This document shows, piece after piece, positions 4,010 through 63,115 of a stretch of 63,115 nt of DNA. The translations under genes and the position numbers were made by a program. Within the stretch, counting starts at the first letter, position 1, and every line of letters starts with the position of its first letter. The notes under the pieces were generated by a model. That model was not told the origin of the DNA. It worked only from the letters and a program-made list of their open reading frames with translations, and searched no databases. The DNA comes from a virus: positions 1 through 63,115 of IMG/VR virus record IMGVR_UViG_3300036715_000947. One strand, written 5' to 3'.

Positions 4010-4471
4010 CTAGGCCCCCATGCTCACGGCCTTGTCCGTCGCCACGATCCAGGCCCGCTGGCTCTCCCAGGTGGTGTCGGGGATCATCCCGGCCTTGGCG
4101 AGGTTGGCGCGGTAGATCGCCGCGTAGTTCTCGGCGGGCACGATGAGGGCCTGGAGCCCAGTGGCCGCGATCCCAGCCGAGGCCCAGGCGGCGATGGCAT
4201 CGGCCTCGGCGCAGGTCGGGTTGGCCTTGATGTAGTCCACACTCGCGGACTTTCCGGCGAACCGCTCCTGCCGAAGAAGCTGGTCCACACTGGAGAACTC
4301 TCCGATAGAGTCAAGCCCCTGGAGAGACGCCACAACGGGCACCTTTGTGTTGTAGTTCTCCACCTGGAGCTTGGCGATGGAGGCGGCGCACTGATCCACC
4401 AGAGCCTTGGCCTGGATAAGTGCAGCCTCCTTTCCGTTGAGAAGGGCGAGGGTTTGAAGGGCGTCAGCCAT
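4010..4471 (-). CDS. Hypothetical protein following the tail-tip gene
   Basis: A 153-residue soluble protein, Ala-rich, with helices at the N-terminus (LALLNGKEAALIQAKALVDQCAAS). Strong GGAGGAG SD site; its stop touches the start of the next gene. Its place directly after the host-specificity gene suggests a tail-fibre accessory or assembly factor, but I recognise no family. It lacks catalytic motifs and membrane segments. Confidence 0.6.
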   Translation of the reverse strand: MADALQTLALLNGKEAALIQAKALVDQCAASIAKLQVENYNTKVPVVASLQGLDSIGEFSSVDQLLRQERFAGKSASVDYIKANPTCAEADAIAAWASAGIAATGLQALIVPAENYAAIYRANLAKAGMIPDTTWESQRAWIVATDKAVSMGA

Positions 4472-4486
4472 GGTAGGCTCCTCCAG

Positions 4487-7400
4487 CTATTGTGGCTTCA
4501 CATTGTGAGATACCACGCCAAGCGTGGTGTAAGTGTGGACGCGATTGACGGTGATCTTGACGACAGGCCCGTAAACGTCGGCCCGTGCGGACTCTACAAC
4601 TAGGCCGTTCGTCAGCACATCGCCGTGGACCAAGTGCTGTAGTTCTTGCCAGCGGCCATCGCCGAGTAGGAATCGGTGATTGGCAGCGAACCTGCCCGTG
4701 CGCCCGTTGGAAAGCACAAGCAGCCATCGGTGGTTTGTGCTCATGGATGCGTGTGTGACTTCCTCAACGCACACGCACCCTTCGGATTCGTCCCAGGCCA
4801 CAACACGGTCGCCAACGCGGACAACACCCGATGGCTTCTCGGTGCCGTCGGCCATGAGCAAAGGCACATCAGGAGCAGGACAGTTACCTCCACCACCCGT
4901 TCCGCCACCCGTTCCGCCACCCGATGCCCCCGTGATACCTGACGGCCAAGACGTGCCATTGTCCGTGAGCGCGGTGCCGACAGTCCACCCAGACGCGGAG
5001 TAGAAGCAATGGGTGTCGCTCGATCCCGCCGCGCCGTAGAGTGTGACCTTGCACGCCGGGACTCCTGACAGAATCGCCTCAGCGATAACCTGTGTGGCAT
5101 AGGACGCGTTCCCGGCATCTGAATCGCTCGTCGGGTTGTAGTAAATACGGTCCCCAAGCGGGCAGTAGTAGACGCCCCTTGCGGTCAGCGTGGCAGTTGT
5201 ACCAGCGGCGGACTGGCTGAACAACTCGATCTTGGCGTAGGAGAGCCCATCCAAATTATCCGTGTATGAATTTGGCGCCAGCTTGAGATCGATGCGCCCC
5301 ATGTAGGGGCTGGCTACCTGGTAGAGCCTTGGCGTAACGGTTAGCTGAGAAATGTTGGGGCGTCCGCCATTGGTGCCAGGGTCATTACTGCCCCGATAAA
5401 AGCACCGGAATGACGTTCCAGCCTGCCCGTTGTCGCCGATGGCGCTCATGGCACGGGCGGTCAGACCAGACAACTTATAGCCTGCGAGATTGACGCCGTA
5501 GCCTAGTTCCATTTGCGCGGTGAATGTTTCGCCGCCAAGTAAGGTTGAAGGAAAACCACCCGCGCTGATCCTGAAACCGATGGGCGCCGAGATGGCCGTG
5601 CCCGCATGGTATCCGTTCTCGTCCGAACCGCTCCGCATGTCCAGCGAGTAAAGCAACGGCACCCGCGCCACGAGTGCCTGGAGCGTGCCGTCCACAATCA
5701 TGGAGGCGTCGGCCATGCGGCGGGCGTATAGGTTGTCGAACCAGTACCACCCAGATGGCTGTGCATCGTTCACTTCGAGGTATATGACCATGAGCACCGC
5801 GCCCGCTGGCGCGGTGCCAATACATGAGGCTTTGGCATAAGAGGTTGAGCTAACTACAGTCGGCGAGCCCCAGCCAACTGTATTGTTTGCGGCGTCCCGG
5901 AAATAACAACCCATAGCCTGCATACCTGGGCCCTGAGACTTTGCCATGCACTCCATGTAATATTTGTCACCAGCAGCACAGGGGATGTGGGCCAAGTCTG
6001 TGCCGCTGTAAGTTCCGTTTGTGTGGTACACCGCGCGGGCGTAGTCCCCCGAGAAGGCGTTAGGCCCGGAGTGATCCAGCCACGCCGCTTCAAATGAGCC
6101 AGCAGGCCAGCCACCGGTAGGCGGAGTTTGATCGCTGGTCCCATTGGGGATCAGATTGTCGAGGTTCGTCACCGTCAATTGGCTAGAAATCAACTGCCCG
6201 AATAGCCCCGTTGCCGCCACCAGCACATCAGTCCACGCCGTGCCTGCCGCGTTGACCTGCACCGTGCGGGCGTCCGTGGTGATGGCGTAGTAGCCTGCGG
6301 GATAGCTCGCATTCGGCAGCGCGGGCTTCGACGCATAGGCCCACGCGACCTGATGCGGCTGTGAAGCGAGTTGCACGGCGTTTGCCTTGTTCGTGGCATC
6401 CGTCGCCGCCATGCTGATCGCGTTCTGCGCCGTGCCCACCGCGATGGCGTTCCGAAGATCGGCGGCGGCATTCTTCACGGCGGTCCACTTCGGGTTCCAC
6501 AGGGCCACGCGATTCCCGGTGCCGAGCGATGTGGTGCCGCTGAGTGAGTTCCAGGCCGTGGGGCTGGTGAGCGTGGAGAGGTAGGACATCAGCGCGGAAT
6601 AGGCCGTGTCATAGGTGGAGTGGCTCACGCTGTAGGCATTGGCCTTCGCCACGAGGTCCGCGTTCTCGCCCGTGATCGCGTTGTAGTCGAGGATGATCTG
6701 CGGCTTCTCGCCCGTGGTCAGGGTGTCGGGATCGTTGATCGTGTTGACGCCGGACTGTGCCGCATCCACGTCTGACTGTGACACGGTGCCAAACGCACCA
6801 ACGGATATCCAGTCAATGGCTACCGATGTTCCTAGATCATTGATGAAGTCGAATCGGAGGGCGAGAACATTCCCGCCGGTCATGTAGTCAGACCCGCCCA
6901 CAGTGAGTGTTCGCATGTCCGCGACGATGGTGGTCCAGACGCCTACGGTTGGGGCTGGAATCACTTTGCGGTAGCCAGAGTTCTCACCGTGACCGGCATT
7001 ACTTGGGTAGATGACACCTTCCCATGGGCCTGTAATGAGTTTGACCCGCATGGCGATTGCGTAGGATTTTGTTGGGTCCAGGTTCAGCCCAGTAAACCTT
7101 AGATTTTGGTCAGCAACCGTGTTGGTGATTGTCGTGGTCGTCCCATTGTCACTCGATGCGACGGTGCCTGGGAATGTGACACCGGCAGGAAGGCCACCGG
7201 AGAAATCTTTGAAGAGAATCGGCTTGATGGGTGAGCCAGCCAGATCGTTAGCCGCATCCGCAAGGGCCTTCGCCTTGGCATAGATCGCATTGAGAAGGGA
7301 CTGCCTGTTGGAATACACATCGGCGAACTTCTGCCGGAAGGTGGTTCCCACGATGGGCACGTCTGAGCCGGGGATGACGTTCCAGCCGGGTAGTGTTCCG

Positions 7401-35330: not shown

Positions 35331-35690
35331 TCCACTGGATAGCGCTACTTCCAAACAAGCCACTTGTAACAAACGTTCGGCATAGAAACTAAAAAGGGTG
35401 TCAATGTGATGTATGCTACGTTACAGGGTGTGAAAAAATTGTCTCAATTTCCGGAGAATGCGTGTTGCCACGCCAAAACGTGCATAAGTAGTGACATGGC
35501 GGTGCTAATAATTTTTAGAAAATGGTGCTATACTAGGTCCACGCGAGCCGGAAACCGCCGGATCGTGACAAATGCCCACCACCACTACGTTACAGCGTGT
35601 CTCAAAATCCCACAATTATTTTTGAGGCTAACTAGCGATGAACCGCGAAAATATAAATAATTCTGGGAAAGAGTGCGTTCCAAAAAAATC

Positions 35691-43718: not shown

Positions 43719-43782
43719 ATGACTAGTTAGCGCGATTGTGGGATAATAGGGGTCCACCACCTCGGGCGCCGCGTCGGCGCCC
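43719..43782 (+). promoter_or_regulatory. Promoter with leader hairpin before the acidic protein gene
   Basis: ATGACT (43719-43724), 17-bp spacer, GATAAT (43742-43747). An 8-bp hairpin (GGGCGCCG, loop CGT) at 43764-43782 forms at the 5' end of the transcript. TTTCAGAAAGG follows before the ATG, similar to the leader at 49.34 kb. Confidence 0.55.
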
Positions 43783-43802
43783 CATTTCAGAAAGGGATTC
43801 TA

Positions 43803-44615
43803 ATGAATCTCCAGGTCATCACGGACAAGAGCGGGATCATCCTCGGATGGTCGCCTACCCAGGCCGATGCGAAGAAGGCGGCGAAGACTCTCGGGGGCGA
43901 GGCGTCTCCCATGGAGGTCGGAACCAGCAAGCCCGATCTCCTCGCTTTCCTCCAGAAGTACTGCACCGGCGTCCACGTGACGAAGGGCGCGAAGGTTCGC
44001 GCCGACATCGTTGCGGGGGATGCCGCCAAGAAGGACAGCGATGCGTCCGGGACCATCGAAGAGCGCGTGACGAACCTCGAAGAGGCCCTCGCAGCTACTC
44101 AGAAGGAGTTCGCTGAGGTCATCAACGAGATCCGCACCGCGCTGCCCCACGAGGACGAGGAGGAGGACGAGGAGGACGAGGAGGACGAGGAGGACGAGGA
44201 GGACGAGGAGGACGAGCAGGACGAGGAGGACGAGGAGGACGAGGAGGACGAGGAGGACGAGGAGGACGAGGAGGACGAGGAGGACGAGGAGGACGAGGAG
44301 GAGGACGAGGAGGAGGACGAGGAGGAGGACGAGGAGGAGGACGAGGAGGACGAGGAGGAGGACGAGGAGGACGAGGAGGACGAGGAGGACGAGGAGGACG
44401 AGGAGGACGAGGAGGACGAGGAGGACGAGGAGGACGAGGAGGACGAGGAGGACGAGGAGGACGAGGAGGACGAGGAGGACGAGGAGGTGAAGCCGAAGCG
44501 CGGTGCTGCGAAGAAGCCCGCCGCGAAGCCTGCGAAGAAGCCCGCCGCCAAGGCCAAGAAGCCCGCCACCAGGTCCAAGCAGCCCGCCCGTGGGCTGGCG
44601 CGTCGGCGCCGGTAG
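43803..44615 (+). CDS. Poly(Asp/Glu) protein with basic H1-like tail
   Basis: 270 residues in three parts. Residues 1-115 are a normal alpha/beta domain (MNLQVITDKSGIILGWSP, DLLAFLQKYCTGVHV, then a coiled-coil TIEERVTNLEEALAATQKEF). Residues about 117-228 are an unbroken run of E-E-D units coded by GAGGAC repeats. Residues about 230-270 are basic (AKKPAAKPAKKPAAKAKKPA). The gene has its own promoter, leader hairpin and terminator. Roles such as DNA mimicry, histone-like buffering or sequestering basic host proteins are inference. The repeat is certainly length-variable. Confidence 0.8.
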   Translation: MNLQVITDKSGIILGWSPTQADAKKAAKTLGGEASPMEVGTSKPDLLAFLQKYCTGVHVTKGAKVRADIVAGDAAKKDSDASGTIEERVTNLEEALAATQKEFAEVINEIRTALPHEDEEEDEEDEEDEEDEEDEEDEQDEEDEEDEEDEEDEEDEEDEEDEEDEEEDEEEDEEEDEEEDEEDEEEDEEDEEDEEDEEDEEDEEDEEDEEDEEDEEDEEDEEDEEDEEVKPKRGAAKKPAAKPAKKPAAKAKKPATRSKQPARGLARRRR

Positions 44616-49230: not shown

Positions 49231-49283
49231 ACGCCACCTAGTAATACAATGGCGTAAGTCGTGACATATCCGTCGAAAAAATG

Positions 49284-49336
49284 TTGAAAACCTAGCGGTA
49301 TCGTGGTACAATTAACAATCGGCGGCGATCCGCCGA
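49284..49336 (+). promoter_or_regulatory. Promoter with leader hairpin before the ssDNA-binding-like gene
   Basis: TTGAAA (49284-49289), 17-bp spacer, TACAAT (49307-49312). Transcription should begin near 49319, exactly where a 7-bp hairpin starts (TCGGCGG, loop CGAT, CCGCCGA, to 49336), followed by CTTTTCAGAAAGAGG and the GTG start. Upstream AAAAAATGTTGA is shared with the promoter at 58.33 kb. Confidence 0.75.
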
Positions 49337-49358
49337 CTTTTCAGAAAGAGGTGCAGGT

Positions 49359-50321
49359 GTGAAGCATGTGTCGGGTGTTCCTGACCGCGTAACCGAGAAG
49401 CATGACGCGGCTGTTGCCAGTGGCAAGGTGCTGAAAAAGAAAAAGCGGCATTCCGACGAGACGGAAGCGCCCAGCACCGTGAAGCGGCCCAAGATGGAGG
49501 TCCGCTCCTACGACGAGCAGATGGCAAAGCTCGCCGCTCGTCAGAAAAGTGCCGAGAGCAAGGGCGGCACCAATTTCATCTCTACCGCAGGTGGGCACTT
49601 CTCCATCAACGACAAGCGCGTCAAGGGCGACGTGCTTCGCGGTGTCATCGTGGACAGCATTTTCTCGAACGTCTACTACGACAAGGAGTGGAAGCCAGGT
49701 GTGAAGGCCACTCCCTCGTGCTACGCCTTCAGCTTCGAGGAAGAGGGCCTGCGCCCTCACAAGGATGCACGCGAGAAACAGTCGAAGACGTGCGAGGACT
49801 GCCCTCTCAATGCTTTCGGCACGGCGCGTGTGGGGAAGGGCAAGGCGTGCAAGAACCAGCGCCGTATCGGGATCATTCTCGAAGACGACCTGGAAGATCC
49901 GCGTGCACCGGTCTACCTCCTCAACGTGGCCGTCACGTCAACAAAGAGCTGGAGGGAGTACGTACGCGCAATCACTTCCGCGTACGACAAGCCCACGGCC
50001 TGCGTGCTGACGGCTATCTCCATCGACACGCCGGAGGACAGGACTACCGCCGAGTTGTCGTTCACGTTTGAGCGCGAGCTTGAGCCTGATGAGCTTGACA
50101 ACGTGCTTCCGCGCCAGCAGGAAGTTGACAACATGCTGACCGTGCCGTTCCCCGTCTTCGATGACGACAAGAAGAAGGGCTCGAAGGCGGGTCGTGACAG
50201 TGACGATGATCACCAGAGGAAGTTTGCCAAGGGTGGCAAGCTCTCCTCCGCCAAGGCCAGCGCTGGACCGTCCGGCATCGTCAAGAACAAGGTCAAGAAG
50301 CCGTCGAAGTTCGTCCGCTAA
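49359..50321 (+). CDS. ssDNA-binding-protein-like phage protein
   Basis: GTG 49359. 320 residues. Basic N-terminus; FISTAGGHFSINDKRVKGDV, RGVIVDSIFSNVYYDKEWKP, CYAFSFEEEGLRPH and CEDCPLNAFGTARVGKGKAC fit a phage family usually placed with polymerase and ligase and considered ssDNA-binding; four Cys (C-x-x-C plus two) probably bind zinc. Residues 258-300 are acidic (VFDDDKKKGSKAGRDSDDDH), like SSB tails, but the end is basic. Its own promoter indicates high expression. Confidence 0.6.
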   Translation: MKHVSGVPDRVTEKHDAAVASGKVLKKKKRHSDETEAPSTVKRPKMEVRSYDEQMAKLAARQKSAESKGGTNFISTAGGHFSINDKRVKGDVLRGVIVDSIFSNVYYDKEWKPGVKATPSCYAFSFEEEGLRPHKDAREKQSKTCEDCPLNAFGTARVGKGKACKNQRRIGIILEDDLEDPRAPVYLLNVAVTSTKSWREYVRAITSAYDKPTACVLTAISIDTPEDRTTAELSFTFERELEPDELDNVLPRQQEVDNMLTVPFPVFDDDKKKGSKAGRDSDDDHQRKFAKGGKLSSAKASAGPSGIVKNKVKKPSKFVR

Positions 50322-51169: not shown

Positions 51170-51210
51170 CACACCAAGCCCCGCACCATATGTCCACCAC
51201 AGGGGATGAA

Positions 51211-54063
51211 GTGAGCATCGAACCGATCACCATCGATTTCGAGACGAACAAGATAGAACCACGCCCACGGTTTCCACCAGAGCCCGTGGGCGTGGCGATT
51301 AAGTGGCCGGGCATGAAGGCCAAGTACCACGCGTGGGGCCATCCGCAGGACAACACGTGCGACAAGGAGTATGGGGTACGGAAGCTGAAAGAGGCATGGA
51401 CAAGCGGGAAGCCTCTCCTGTTCCATAATTCCAAGTTCGACGTGGCGGTGGCAAACGAGAGACTCGGGCTCAGCATCCCATCGTGGGAGATGATGCACGA
51501 CACCATGTTCCTGCTTTTCCTCGACAACCCCTATTCCAAGTCACTAGCTCTGAAGCCTAGCTCCGAGATCTACCTGGGGATGCCGCCAGAGGAGCGAGAC
51601 ATGGTGTGCGATTGGCTCGTGGAGAACCAAGCCATGCTGAGAAGCACAGGCTTGCTCGACAAACACGAGCGCATTACCGATGGCAACTTCGGAAAGTACA
51701 TTTCACTCGCGCCAGGCGGTCTGGTGGCCGCGTATGGCATGGGCGACGTGATACGCACCGAGAAGCTGTTCAAGCGCCTATACCATCAGGTCACGGTAGA
51801 GCGCGGAATGCGCTACGCGTACGACACCGAGCGCGAGCTAATGCCCATCCTGCTTGCCAACGAGCGGGAGGGCATCCGTGCGGCCAAGAAGAGCTTGGCC
51901 AATAGCATCGTCACGTACGAAGAGGCCATGCAGGAAGTGGACGAGTGGATACGGAAGCGGCTACACGCGCCGGGCATGAACGTCAACGCTGACCAGCAGC
52001 TTGCTAACGCGCTGGAAAGCTCTGGCGTAGTGACCGACTTCGTTTACACCAAGCCGTCCAAGGCCCACCCCAATGGGCAGCGTTCAGTGTCGAAAGACAA
52101 CCTGACCATTGAGCGCTTCAAGGACCCACGCGTATTCCGAGTGCTCACCTACAGGAACAAGCTGGCCTACTCTCTGGCCACATTCATGCGCCCATGGGCG
52201 GCGGTGGCCGAGCAAACAGGCGGCACCATCCACACGAATTGGAATCAAGTCATGCGCCAAGGGGCGGGCGCTATCACTGGAAGAATGTCGTCATCGCCCA
52301 ACTTTCAAAATGTGACGAAGAACGTAAAGGAAGACGTGGAGAGCGAGGGCGGATACAGACACCCATCGTTCCTGAAGTGGCTTCCCGAGCTTCCGTCGTT
52401 GAGACGGTTCCTGTTGCCGGACGCCGGAGAACTTTTTGGGCACAGAGACTTCTGCTTCTCCGACGACACCGAAGTACTGACGGATGAAGGATGGAAGCTG
52501 TTCAAGGACTTGACCAGGAAAGAAAAAGTGGCGCAATGGCGCGATGGTGTTGTCAGCTTTGCACACCCGCTGGCGTATCAGAACCTACGCCACGATGGTG
52601 TCATGTATCACATCACTGGGAAGGACTCGTTCGACCTACTGGTGTCGCCCAATCATAGGTGTTTGGTGGAGTTGGACGGAGCACGTGGTTTTGAATTTGT
52701 ACGCCCCGCTGACTATCCCACCAGCCATGCTTGGCAATGGAGCGCGGGCAAGTACTTAGGTACTGGCAAGCTGATCTGCCCAACAGACGACGAAATCACG
52801 TTGTTGTGTGCGCTCCAAGCCGACGGAAGCGTAAAGAACTACGCTGCGCCTCGCGTTGTGTGGTACTTGAAGAAGCCGCGCAAGATAGAGCGACTGTCGG
52901 CAACATTGAAGGCGTTGGGCGTGGACTACTTCACCAATCCTAACATCCCGTCCAAGCCTGGATTTACTTCATTCTCTATGGCGTGGAGCGATCTTCCAAG
53001 CAATGTTCGCAAACTCATTGACAGGGAAAAGACGTTCACTCGCAAGTTGCTTTCCATGGACCTTGCTTCGCGCAGGGTGTTTGTGAACGAGCTATTCTTT
53101 TGGGACGGATCGCGCCAAGACGGTGCGAACAGCGGGTACTACTGCTCCACCAACCGTGCGAACGTAGAGCTTGTGCAAGAAGTAGCCACCCTGTCCAACT
53201 ATCGCGCTCAGTTAAGGATAGAAAAGCACGCCACGAAGAAGACGTGCTACTTCGTGAATATGCGAGACAACCCAAGGACAGGCGTAGATACGGCGGTACG
53301 AAGTGAGATAGAGTATCACGGAAGAATCTATTGTGTCTCAATGCCGCACGGCACTGTCATCGTGCGAAGGAATGGCCGTGTATCGGTTACGGGCAACTGC
53401 CAGCAGGAATTGCGCATTCTGGCCGAGTATGAGGGTCGTGCACTGTTCAGGGCGTACAGGAAGAACGCAGACCTCGACGTTCACGTGATGGTGCAAGGAC
53501 TCCTGGCCGACGCGGGGCAGCACCTTGAGCGTTCCGACGTAAAGCGCTTCAACTTCGGCATTCTGTACGGCATGGGCGCAACCGGGCTGTCAAAGCGGCT
53601 CGGCATCTCCAAGGGCAAGGCCCGCGAGCTTATCTCCACGTGGAACCGCGTCATGCCAGGTGTGGCGGACCTCGTGGAAGACATCAAGGACGAGGTAAGG
53701 CGCGGCGGCTACATTTGCACGTGGGGAGGCAGGCAGTACACGATGCCCCCTCCCATGACCTTTGGGGAGAACGGAGAAGTACGCGATCGTGACTACGTGC
53801 TGCTCAACTACCTCATACAAGGGTCCGGCGCTGACGCCACCAAGCGGGCACTCATCAACTACTACAAAGAGAAGAAGCACAGCCGCATCATCAACAACGT
53901 CCACGACGAAATAAACTTCTCAGCACATGCACACCACATGGCTGAGGAACAGTCAATTCTCAAGCAAGTAATCGAAGACCTTCCTTTCGATGTCGGCATG
54001 AAGAGCGATGGGAAAGCTGGCAAGAATTGGGGAGCACTCGAACCGTGGAAGGACGAGCTATGA
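51211..54063 (+). CDS. polA: Family A DNA polymerase with 3'-5' exonuclease, interrupted by an intein
   Basis: GTG 51211 has AGGGG upstream; an in-frame ATG at 51190 lacks an SD site. 950-residue precursor. Exonuclease domain: ITIDFETNK near the start and LLFHNSKFDVAVANERLGL. Polymerase: QVMRQGAGAITGRMSSSPNFQN (fingers/palm, quoted core TGRMSSSPNFQN), motif A split as HRDF / CQQELRILAEY by the intein (residues 415-729), motif B region DVKRFNFGILYGMGATGL and motif C NNVHDEINF. The spliced enzyme is about 635 residues. It replicates the phage genome. Confidence 0.93.
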   Translation: MSIEPITIDFETNKIEPRPRFPPEPVGVAIKWPGMKAKYHAWGHPQDNTCDKEYGVRKLKEAWTSGKPLLFHNSKFDVAVANERLGLSIPSWEMMHDTMFLLFLDNPYSKSLALKPSSEIYLGMPPEERDMVCDWLVENQAMLRSTGLLDKHERITDGNFGKYISLAPGGLVAAYGMGDVIRTEKLFKRLYHQVTVERGMRYAYDTERELMPILLANEREGIRAAKKSLANSIVTYEEAMQEVDEWIRKRLHAPGMNVNADQQLANALESSGVVTDFVYTKPSKAHPNGQRSVSKDNLTIERFKDPRVFRVLTYRNKLAYSLATFMRPWAAVAEQTGGTIHTNWNQVMRQGAGAITGRMSSSPNFQNVTKNVKEDVESEGGYRHPSFLKWLPELPSLRRFLLPDAGELFGHRDFCFSDDTEVLTDEGWKLFKDLTRKEKVAQWRDGVVSFAHPLAYQNLRHDGVMYHITGKDSFDLLVSPNHRCLVELDGARGFEFVRPADYPTSHAWQWSAGKYLGTGKLICPTDDEITLLCALQADGSVKNYAAPRVVWYLKKPRKIERLSATLKALGVDYFTNPNIPSKPGFTSFSMAWSDLPSNVRKLIDREKTFTRKLLSMDLASRRVFVNELFFWDGSRQDGANSGYYCSTNRANVELVQEVATLSNYRAQLRIEKHATKKTCYFVNMRDNPRTGVDTAVRSEIEYHGRIYCVSMPHGTVIVRRNGRVSVTGNCQQELRILAEYEGRALFRAYRKNADLDVHVMVQGLLADAGQHLERSDVKRFNFGILYGMGATGLSKRLGISKGKARELISTWNRVMPGVADLVEDIKDEVRRGGYICTWGGRQYTMPPPMTFGENGEVRDRDYVLLNYLIQGSGADATKRALINYYKEKKHSRIINNVHDEINFSAHAHHMAEEQSILKQVIEDLPFDVGMKSDGKAGKNWGALEPWKDEL
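52453..53397 (+). mobile_element. LAGLIDADG intein in DNA polymerase motif A
   Basis: 315 residues. Block A CFSDDTEVLTDEGWKLF; block B FDLLVSPNHRCLV; LAGLIDADG motifs LLCALQADGSVKN and VNELFFWDGSRQDG, each followed by the usual helix (KIERLSATLKALGVDYF; VELVQEVATLSNYR); block F/G RIYCVSMPHGTVIVRRNGRV then SVTGN with Cys as +1. All in frame. It splits D-F from C-Q-Q-E-L-R in motif A, whose Asp binds catalytic metal, so splicing is essential for replication. Confidence 0.93.
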
Positions 54064-56588: not shown

Positions 56589-56783
56589 ATGAAGGAAATG
56601 ACGTACGACATGTGGATGGCGGCAGGGTACTGCGTACGAAAAGGCGAGAAGTCTATGGGGCGCGACAGGCACGGCAGACCTACGTTCAAGCGCGAACAGG
56701 TAGAAGAGAGAAGTGACTTCATGCGCCCCAAATACTCGGACAGCGACCGTCTCATGGACACCGAAGATTTGTGCGGGGAGTAG
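56589..56783 (+). CDS. Small hypothetical protein
   Basis: 64 residues: MKEMTYDMWMAAGYCVRKGE, basic and hydrophilic, ending DSDRLMDTEDLCGE. GAGAGGG lies upstream. It resembles small phage proteins with 'Y-x-x-W-x-A-x-G-Y-x-V-x-K-G-E-K', whose role is unknown. Confidence 0.6.
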   Translation: MKEMTYDMWMAAGYCVRKGEKSMGRDRHGRPTFKREQVEERSDFMRPKYSDSDRLMDTEDLCGE

Positions 56784-56785
56784 CT

Positions 56786-58270
56786 GTGCGCAGAATGGTG
56801 AGAAGGCCGAAGCGGGCGCAAGAATGGGTGCCCAGGAATTACATGAAGAGGGCCTTGCGCTTCCTCCTCTCCAATGGAGCGGCGGGCTTGTGGCTCGATC
56901 CCGGCCTCGGCAAGACTTCAATCACGCTCACAGCGTTCAACTATTTGCGCAAGTACAAAACGGCGCGGCGCATGTTGGTGATCGCACCTCTGCGTGTGTG
57001 CCGGTCTGTGTGGCCCAAGGAGGGCCGGAAGTGGGCACATCTCAACGGCCTCAAGATTGTTTTCCTCCACGGCAACGACAAGGACCAGCTACTTGAGGAG
57101 GACGACGCCGATGTGTATTGTATTAACCCCGAAGGTCTACAGTGGCTTTTGTCCAAGGGCAGGTTTGGCAAGCTAGACGCCGATGTGCTGTGCATAGATG
57201 AGGTGTCTCGGTTCAAGAATACGAACACGCAGAGGTTCAAGGCGCTGAAGCCCTACCTCGGACGATTCCGTAGGCGGTGGACGTTGACGGGCACGCCAGC
57301 GCCCAACGGGCTCATGGACATCTTTGGGCAGATTTACTGTCTCGACCTTGGCCACGCGCTAGGTCCGTACGTCACACACTACCGACAGAAATTTTTCCAG
57401 CAAGATCCAGGCAACGAGTACGGATGGATACTCAAGAAAGGAGCTGAGAAAGAGATATACGAGAAAATAGCACCCCTCATACTGCGAATCGACAACAGCG
57501 TGTTGAAGGGTCTTCCTAAATTGGTGTTCAACAATGTCATGGTCGACCTGCCAGACAAGGCCATGCGCGTTTACAAGGAGATGGAGCGCGAGCTTTTCAC
57601 GCTACTGGACGACGGAACGAAGATAGCGGCAAAGAGCGTGGGCGTGGCTGTGGGGAAGTGCAATCAGATCGCCAACGGTGGCATCTACACACAGAACCCA
57701 ATCACGGGCAAGCGCATCGCGCGGGACGTGCACATGGCGAAGGTGGAAGCAGTGCAGGACTTGGTGGAGGAGATCGGTGGCAAGCCGGTGCTTCTCCTCT
57801 ACAACTATTCCAGCGACAAGGAGCGCCTCAAGCGTGCGTTTCCCAACGCCCCCTGCGTGGCCGACATGACCGAGCGCAAGGCGGATCAGCTATTCGACAG
57901 GTGGAATCGTGGCGCGGTGCCGCTGATGATGGCACAACCTAGCTCCATCGGTCATGGGCTCAATCTACAGGGTGGTGGGCAGCACATCATTTGGATGGGC
58001 CTACCGTGGGATCTTGAGCTTTGGATTCAGGCCATCGACCGACTGCACCGACAGGGGTCCAGGTTCAAGCACGTCTTCGTCCATTGCATCATCGCCAAGG
58101 GCACCGTGGACGTGATTATCCGTCGCACGCTTGCCGAGAAGGACGCCACGCAGAACAGGCTCCTAGAAGCAATCAAGAACAGCCGCAGAGACGAGGTGCT
58201 GGTGGGCACGGGCCAGGCGAGGCACTACCTCCAGGATCGGGGCGGCTGCCGCGTCTCCAGCGGGCGCTAG
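56786..58270 (+). CDS. SNF2-type SF2 helicase
   Basis: GTG 56786 with GGGGAG six bases upstream. 494 residues. Motif I LWLDPGLGKTSITL (about 36-49), motif Ia MLVIAPLRVCRSVW, motif II ADVLCIDEVSRFKN (about 131-145), motif III WTLTGTPAPNGLMDIFGQIY, and C-terminal motifs LLYNYSSDKERL, SIGHGLNLQGGGQHIIWMG and IQAIDRLHRQGSRF (Q-x-x-G-R-like). This is the phage SNF2 family, presumed to remodel or unwind nucleoprotein during replication or recombination. Confidence 0.9.
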   Translation: MRRMVRRPKRAQEWVPRNYMKRALRFLLSNGAAGLWLDPGLGKTSITLTAFNYLRKYKTARRMLVIAPLRVCRSVWPKEGRKWAHLNGLKIVFLHGNDKDQLLEEDDADVYCINPEGLQWLLSKGRFGKLDADVLCIDEVSRFKNTNTQRFKALKPYLGRFRRRWTLTGTPAPNGLMDIFGQIYCLDLGHALGPYVTHYRQKFFQQDPGNEYGWILKKGAEKEIYEKIAPLILRIDNSVLKGLPKLVFNNVMVDLPDKAMRVYKEMERELFTLLDDGTKIAAKSVGVAVGKCNQIANGGIYTQNPITGKRIARDVHMAKVEAVQDLVEEIGGKPVLLLYNYSSDKERLKRAFPNAPCVADMTERKADQLFDRWNRGAVPLMMAQPSSIGHGLNLQGGGQHIIWMGLPWDLELWIQAIDRLHRQGSRFKHVFVHCIIAKGTVDVIIRRTLAEKDATQNRLLEAIKNSRRDEVLVGTGQARHYLQDRGGCRVSSGR

Positions 58271-58333: not shown

Positions 58334-58388
58334 TTGACTTATGCCGCTAACTCGCGGTATAATTGTTCATCGGCGCATCGGAGCGCCG
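58334..58388 (+). promoter_or_regulatory. Strong promoter with leader hairpin
   Basis: TTGACT (58334-58339), 18-bp spacer, perfect TATAAT (58358-58363). A 6-bp hairpin CGGCGC/GCGCCG with loop ATCGGA (58371-58388) begins at the expected start of transcription. Upstream AAAAAATGTTGA matches the 49.28-kb promoter, and CGCGGTATAAT resembles its TAGCGGTAT. It drives the last operon. Confidence 0.85.
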
Positions 58389-58409
58389 GACATCACAAGG
58401 AGGTGCAGT

Positions 58410-58763
58410 ATGAGACCCACACAACGCACGTTTGGGGCGGCGCTTGTCGTGTGTAGTTGGTGCGGCAACGACAGTGGAGACCTCGCCGTAGGACAGCTCC
58501 CTGACAGTTGCGGAATGCGCGTGATTATCAACGATCAGCCGTGCCAGACATGCAAGGACGAAATGGCTCGGGGCATCACCTTCATCGAGGCTACCAAGGA
58601 CGCGTTCGGCAAGGTCGAGCGAACAGGGCGCTGGTCGGTGGTGACGGAGGAGGGGGCGCGTGGAATCATCAATGGCGACGAACTGCTGGCGTCCGTGCTC
58701 AAGTGTCGCAAGACGTACATGGAGACGGAAACGTACGAGAGGGTGTTCGGACGCTGCAAATAA
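58410..58763 (+). CDS. Conserved phage zinc-ribbon protein
   Basis: ATG 58410 behind AAGGAGG. 117 residues: ALVVCSWCGNDSGDLAVGQL, INDQPCQTCKDEMARGITFI, then an alpha/beta C-terminus. CxxC...CxxC makes a zinc ribbon; 'P-C-x-x-C-x-x-x-M-x-x-G-I' is a common phage signature. First gene after a strong promoter, so abundant early product. Function unknown. Confidence 0.75.
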   Translation: MRPTQRTFGAALVVCSWCGNDSGDLAVGQLPDSCGMRVIINDQPCQTCKDEMARGITFIEATKDAFGKVERTGRWSVVTEEGARGIINGDELLASVLKCRKTYMETETYERVFGRCK

Positions 58764-62749: not shown

Positions 62750-63115
62750 TGGCCGTGCCTGTACCGCCGGAGGGCATGACCGGGAGCATGACCGGGAGCA
62801 TGGCCGGGAAGCCTCCCATGGGCCGGAGCATGGGCCGGAGCATGGGCCGGAGCATGGGCCGGAGCATGGGCCGGAGCATGGGCCGGAGCATGACCGGGAG
62901 CATGGCCGGGAAGCCTCCCATGGGCCGGAGCATGGCCGGGAAGCCTCCCATGGGCCGGAGCATGGGCCGGAGCATGGGCCGGAGCATGGGCCGGGAAGCC
63001 TCCCACGGGCCGGAGCGTGGCCGGGAAGCCTCCCATGGGCCGGAGCGTGGCCGGGAAGCCTCCCATGGGCCGGAGCATGGCCGGGAAGCCTCCCATGGGC
63101 CGGAGCGTGGCCGGG
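62750..63115. repeat. Right-end minisatellite, mixed 12-bp and 30-bp units
   Basis: Variants of CATGGGCCGGAG (12 bp) and CATGACCGGGAG alternate with the 30-bp unit that begins AAGCCTCCCATGGGCCGGAG. From about 62995 the 30-bp unit is regular and runs to the last base, in phase with the array at position 1. No gene is supported here. Confidence 0.92.

Follow-up and report, generated by a model that had tools for sequence, protein, structure and literature searches.

Do several right-arm promoters of this phage place a small hairpin at the very start of the transcript, and what could such a hairpin do? The window, meaning the whole stretch of DNA analysed, is the 63,115-base IMG/VR genome record IMGVR_UViG_3300036715_000947 of a tailed phage. 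Its structural genes (terminase, portal, tape measure, and tail tip J) lie on the minus strand, and the plus-strand right arm encodes primase, DNA ligase, a family A DNA polymerase, and an SNF2-type helicase. In the DNA polymerase ORF (51190-54063), some 320 residues (~417-740) form an insert that AXL_3-type polymerases lack. Parts of phage ribonucleotide reductase, PhoH-like, and thymidylate synthase proteins match this insert, which is probably an intein. Both ends of the record (1-295 and 62795-63115) lie inside the same 30-bp tandem repeat, and the genome is therefore probably circular or terminally redundant, cut within the repeat array. The lower-GC left end contains a second tandem array (1951-2178, 18 copies of the 13-bp unit CCTACCGGCGAAT) with a terminator-like hairpin immediately to its right; the array is possibly an origin or a protein-binding array.

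The promoters, hairpins, and Shine-Dalgarno (SD) sites concerned are as follows.

49284-49312 (-35 49284-49289, -10 49307-49312), plus strand: sigma70-like promoter TTGAAA-17-TACAAT with TG before the -10, 10/12 consensus matches
49319-49336, plus strand: hairpin TCGGCGG-CGAT-CCGCCGA, 7 bp, 4-nt loop, -11.6 kcal/mol, 6 nt after the -10
49347-49351, plus strand: SD AGAGG with a GTG start at 49359, read from the sequence
56771-58270, plus strand: SNF2-type helicase gene; the position just downstream is a promoter site common to the window and its relatives
58334-58363 (-35 58334-58339, -10 58358-58363), plus strand: sigma70-like promoter TTGACT-18-TATAAT just past the helicase gene, 11/12 consensus matches
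58371-58388, plus strand: hairpin CGGCGC-ATCGGA-GCGCCG, 6 bp, 6-nt loop, -11.0 kcal/mol, 7 nt after the -10
58397-58403, plus strand: SD AAGGAGG with an ATG start at 58410, read from the sequence
43719-43747 (-35 43719-43724, -10 43742-43747), plus strand: weaker sigma70-like promoter ATGACT-17-GATAAT with TG before the -10, 9/12 consensus matches
43764-43782, plus strand: hairpin GGGCGCCG-CGT-CGGCGCCC, 8 bp, 3-nt loop, -16.1 kcal/mol, 16 nt after the -10
43791-43796, plus strand: SD AAAGGG with an ATG start at 43803, read from the sequence
35529-35534, plus strand: candidate fourth promoter, extended -10 TGCTATACT (TATACT) with no clear -35, missed by consensus scans
35542-35567, plus strand: fourth hairpin, imperfect (5+4 pairs, one mismatch), -12.4 kcal/mol, 7 nt after the -10

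The 49.3-kb promoter drives an operon that runs from the 49359 gene through an intervening gene set to the DNA polymerase. The 58371 hairpin can be extended by a U-G pair to 58370-58389. An earlier note on this DNA had proposed that at three sites a sigma70-like promoter is followed at about +1 by a GC hairpin of 6-8 bp and then by an SD site. All three elements are present at all three sites, and the hairpin lies at about the predicted +1/+2 at 49.31 and 58.36 kb, but at 43.74 kb it is found ~10 nt inside the predicted RNA and is not 5'-terminal. The claim that the hairpins form the RNA 5' end is thus supported by position for two of the three. The note overlooked the weaker fourth site at 35.53 kb, where the hairpin follows the -10 by 7 nt. 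Stems near the predicted 5' end follow the -10s at 49307, 58358, and 35529 (offsets 6, 7, and 7) and not the one at 43742 (offset 16). Of the 15 sigma70-like sites that reach a score of 8.5 when both strands of the window are scanned, 3 carry such a hairpin 2-22 nt after the -10, compared with 510 of 41,978 sampled positions (1.2%).

The leaders also resemble each other. Alignment of the 49.3- and 58.3-kb leaders scored 83 (shuffle mean 23) and that of the 49.3- and 43.7-kb leaders 49 (shuffle mean 22), with 0/500 shuffles as high in either case; for the 58.3- and 43.7-kb pair the score was 45 (shuffle mean 24.5; 2/500 shuffles as high). Being well above shuffles, this likeness indicates that the shared words reflect related cassettes. 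Of the words listed in the earlier note, two are unique in the window to their pairs of sites, AAAAAATGTTGA at 49276 and 58326 and TTTCAGAAAG at 43785 and 49339. The third, GCGGTAT, is indeed shared (49295 and 58354), yet it occurs 8 times in the window and alone means little.

The first gene past the 43.74-kb promoter contains 38 copies of the 9-bp repeat ACGAGGAGG (44149-44487), which encode a long acidic repeat. The octamer CTAGTTAG occurs 5 times against ~0.2 expected, at 307, 2223, 35283, 35628 (minus), and 43723 (plus). Four copies are not within any long coding ORF, and the remaining one shares bases with the -35 of this promoter; ATTGTGGGAT follows two of the copies. The octamer is a candidate operator of a phage regulator.

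At the DNA level no near match to the right arm was found among named phages. The window polymerase and helicase are closest to those of Stenotrophomonas phage AXL_3, Pseudoxanthomonas phage PW916, and the uncultured MW202621 (37-45% identity). Searches for diverged close relatives of the right arm with four protein queries returned only identical contigs (3300035181_000353 and 3300035181_000792) or distant phages, and a 4.7-kb portal fragment (L113) that is 92% identical stops short of the right arm. No diverged copy of the window's own hairpin sites was found, and covariation at its own stems comes from three paralogous cassettes only.

More distant relatives, among them AXL_3, PW916, YuA, and many IMG/VR contigs, possess the same kind of element. 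One site has the same place in the window and in relatives: a promoter with a hairpin directly follows the helicase gene. In a helicase-anchored survey of 100 loci with a relative (a locus count that is slightly too high), the stretch from 45 nt before the helicase stop to 130 nt past it contained a promoter in 42 and none in 56, and 2 were too short. The 42 promoters represent 30 distinct leaders. Seventeen of these, the window included, have a hairpin of -5 kcal/mol or lower starting 6-8 nt after the -10, one of them (L093) looking spurious, and the other 13 fail to reach -5 kcal/mol. The hairpins at L093:15056 and L059:523, both of which look spurious, were kept in the counts of this survey and in the offset and base-before-stem counts below. 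The common post-helicase form reads TTTACA-N17-TAgaAT, then seven bases of which the last is A, CGGTC-loop-GACCG, GCTGAGGAG, and a start codon. AXL_3 and PW916 possess further hairpin copies adjoining the ligase gene. Phage YuA has two clear copies, both in promoters that are already annotated as repeats: CGGTC...GACCG follows the -10 by 8 nt at the 7746 promoter and CGTTC...GAACG by 7 nt at the 29082 promoter, and 3/6 promoters found (10524, 22663, and 31124) are without a hairpin. In MW202621 (L010), two strong plus-strand TTTACA promoters with leaders and start codons (35501 and 36085) lie amid genes annotated on the minus strand only, and the annotation there may be wrong.

A covariance model of the TTTACA/CGGTC leader family (R1) gave 36 matches in the 60 loci searched. 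Its single match in the window (13.4 bits, E 1.4, at 4460-4515) is away from the hairpin sites. The window leaders are therefore like those of the family in build and place, not in sequence.

The distance between hairpin and -10 is fixed in this group. It was examined in 83 TTTACA-type promoters, each with an SD and a start codon close by, the window excluded, at three clustering levels. Hairpins of -5 kcal/mol or lower begin exactly 7 nt after the -10 in 16/56, 10/42, and 8/24 clusters. Control offsets of 10-39 in the same set gave 0-4 clusters, and shuffles a mean of 1.7, 1.5, and 0.8 with a maximum of 6, 4, and 3 at the three levels. In a wider set of 188 promoters forming 143 clusters (window and YuA included; T1, Xp15, and KPP25 left out), a perfect stem of 5 bp or more starts at offset 6-8 in 20/143 clusters, compared with 1, 2, 0, 3, and 1 at five control offsets. 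When fold energy is averaged across all promoter-like sites the peak is weak because most such sites are false, and it becomes clear once an SD and a start codon are required. In the TTTACA set the base before the stem is A in 14/17 hairpin clusters, and CA precedes it in 11/17, which is what a start at that A would predict. In hairpin-less clusters A is also the commonest base at that position (21/39). As it is common with and without a hairpin, this base marks the predicted transcription start and not the hairpin.

The placement is a habit of one lineage, not of phages generally, since most promoters of these phages have no hairpin (39/56 TTTACA clusters) and an IMG/VR-wide scan for a single stem gave no excess over a shifted control. 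In that scan TATAAT-N7-CGGCG..CGCCG was found in 46 stretches (39 distinct), compared with 57 (40 distinct) for the N17 control; requiring a -35 score of at least 3 left 5 against 3. In phage T1, used as a control, hairpins occur at offset 6-8 in 0/29 promoters and at offsets 1-4 in up to 5/29, some of these being terminators. Among the 12 promoters of the Xp15 and KPP25 stretches, a hairpin begins once at offset 7, once at 8, and three times at 9.

The stems could in principle be kept as RNA hairpins or as DNA palindromes, and the pattern of changes separates the two. In an alignment of 23 leaders, whose rows were chosen among promoters carrying the 5' arm, 98.3% of pair cells are paired, and both unpaired cells come from L042, which is misaligned and was kept. 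Double changes are seen at 2/5 pairs, along with 7 further pair types, and the covariation score exceeds 500/500 shuffles and every slide. In promoters with the 5' arm CGGTC at offset 6-8 the 3' arm is present in 16/16 distinct cases (shuffled: 15%), 7 of them via one G-U pair. The ligase-side stems of AXL_3, PW916, and L072 stay paired through U-G/U-A/C-G and A-U/G-C changes. On the transcript strand of the wider set, single stem mismatches at offset 6-8 comprise 12 G-U, 1 A-C, and 9 others, while the pooled control offsets have 7 G-U and 8 A-C. A sign calculation (12/13 G-U) gives a probability of ~0.002, but five of the twelve share one stem type and may represent one event. A DNA palindrome would give G-U and A-C equally, and the G-U bias therefore points to selection on an RNA hairpin. 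Judged from these sequence comparisons, it is the RNA hairpin and not the DNA palindrome on which selection acts in the related phages.

On balance we consider it probable that several operons of the window phage, and of a wide group related to it, begin their mRNA with a hairpin at +1/+2 that resists 5'-end-dependent decay. Sigma70 transcripts normally start ~6-7 nt past the -10. The host sigma70 RNA polymerase would accordingly start ~7 nt past the -10 here, usually at the A just before the stem, which would leave 0-2 unpaired nucleotides at the RNA 5' end. Such a paired end would be expected to resist host decay, in which RppH removes pyrophosphate and RNase E then acts. Operons with the hairpin would have longer-lived mRNA than hairpin-less promoters of the same genomes. 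The 43.74-kb hairpin, ~10 nt in, would protect less or work otherwise. The hairpins of the window leave the SD outside the stem, and in relatives the SD is unpaired in predicted folds. A protective role would call for just such a stem at +1/+2, its sequence and loop size being free to vary, and the hairpin position and the free variation of stem sequence fit it. Passages of PMC3997798 report that in E. coli bla mRNA is stabilised by a 5' hairpin, which impedes RppH, and that purified B. subtilis RppH requires at least two unpaired nucleotides; in a passage of PMC8948821, a 5' leader hairpin is reported to stabilise T4 gene 32 mRNA.

A more far-reaching version, which we hold only tentatively and would not bet on, is that in this broad siphovirus group two promoter classes, differing only in the presence or absence of the +2 5'-terminal hairpin cassette (present: long-lived mRNA), set the dose of the replication operons post-transcriptionally and without a phage regulator. 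The 5' mark would then be a structure that no host decay enzyme opens.

The best-surviving rival, which is unlikely, is that the hairpin marks the operons of a regulon by binding an RNA-binding protein, encoded by phage or host, that controls translation or anti-termination. The CGGTC/GACCG stem recurs in several promoters of one genome and across genomes, and the window leaders share words outside the stem. However, stem sequence, stem length, and loop size vary within one genome: PW916 has the stems CGGTCG, GTCGGC, and GCTCGGC, whose loops measure 5-7 nt, and in the window a 6-bp stem has a 6-nt loop, a 7-bp stem a 4-nt loop, and an 8-bp stem a 3-nt loop. The loop is not conserved. Of the two roles suggested in the earlier note, binding of a phage regulator is therefore less favoured than 5'-end protection, because stems and loop lengths differ among the promoters of one genome.

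It is distinctly improbable that the hairpin acts in initiation or early elongation, by blocking RNA polymerase backtracking or pairing of the 5' end with the SD, and not in decay. Any strong early hairpin could do this, and the unpaired SD in the predicted folds of relatives agrees with it, but a stem start fixed at +1/+2 would not be needed, yet the offset peak is sharp at 7. Still less probable is a double-stranded DNA operator over +1 to which a dimeric repressor binds. An inverted repeat at +1 occupies a classic operator position, and the window stems have CGGCG/CGCCG in common, but half-site spacing is variable (loops of 3 to ~15 nt), and the compensatory changes and the transcript-strand mismatches (G-U 12 vs A-C 1, elsewhere 7 vs 8) speak against it. 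The least credible alternative sees terminators in the hairpins, or composite cassettes of promoter and terminator of the T4-type PeSL kind. It can cite T1 (L111) promoters with U-run hairpins at offsets 0-5 (e.g. 15084, 22782, and 28559) and the 49.3-kb dyad, flagged as terminator-like on the minus strand (49338-49317), but no sense hairpin of the window is so flagged and the aligned leaders of relatives have no U-run after the stem.

Several known systems were compared with the promoter-borne hairpin. In N4-type promoters a hairpin upstream of +1 replaces the -35/-10 and is used with a giant virion RNA polymerase. This type was rejected because the window hairpins are downstream of a sigma70-type -10 and the longest of the listed ORFs (1863 aa) matches tail tip J. 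Rfam 15 gave 0 matches at the gathering score in the window and in L008, L009, L051, and L037. The PeSL of T4-type phages is a small repeated cassette of promoter and stem-loop, the stem-loops being terminators. The element described here is likewise a small repeated phage cassette of promoter and stem-loop, but its stem is at +1/+2, and a PeSL-type cassette was rejected because the U-run is absent from the window's sense hairpins. In YuA (NC_010116) the repeats (TTTACT...TATACT) are annotated as 'putative sigma70 promoter requiring phage-encoded cofactor', and the annotation names no hairpin. Searches of the open-licence PubMed Central literature turned up no description of promoter-built 5' hairpins in such phages.

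The T7 gene 10 leader is a 5'-terminal stem-loop that stabilises mRNA, and so are the E. coli ompA, papA, and engineered bla leaders, which are named in PMC3997798. The promoter-borne hairpin is like them in its short stem at the predicted 5' end, few unpaired nucleotides, and an SD outside the stem. Unlike these four, it keeps one distance to the -10 across many operons of a whole phage group, and its stabilising effect is predicted. T4 gene 32, in a passage of PMC8948821, is likewise a case of a phage leader hairpin reported to stabilise its transcript; it concerns one gene and a CUUCGG tetraloop, whereas loops here are variable and no window hairpin has a CUUCGG loop. The pattern in the related phages suggests that the pairing of promoter-borne hairpins is kept by selection across a large group. 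Promoters with and without hairpins in one genome form a natural set for studying phage escape from 5'-end-dependent decay, and the fixed hairpin position provides a rule for recognising true start sites in phage genomes. Stabilisation by a 5'-terminal hairpin is known from individual mRNAs; in the present case a large phage group apparently builds such hairpins into its promoters at a fixed place.
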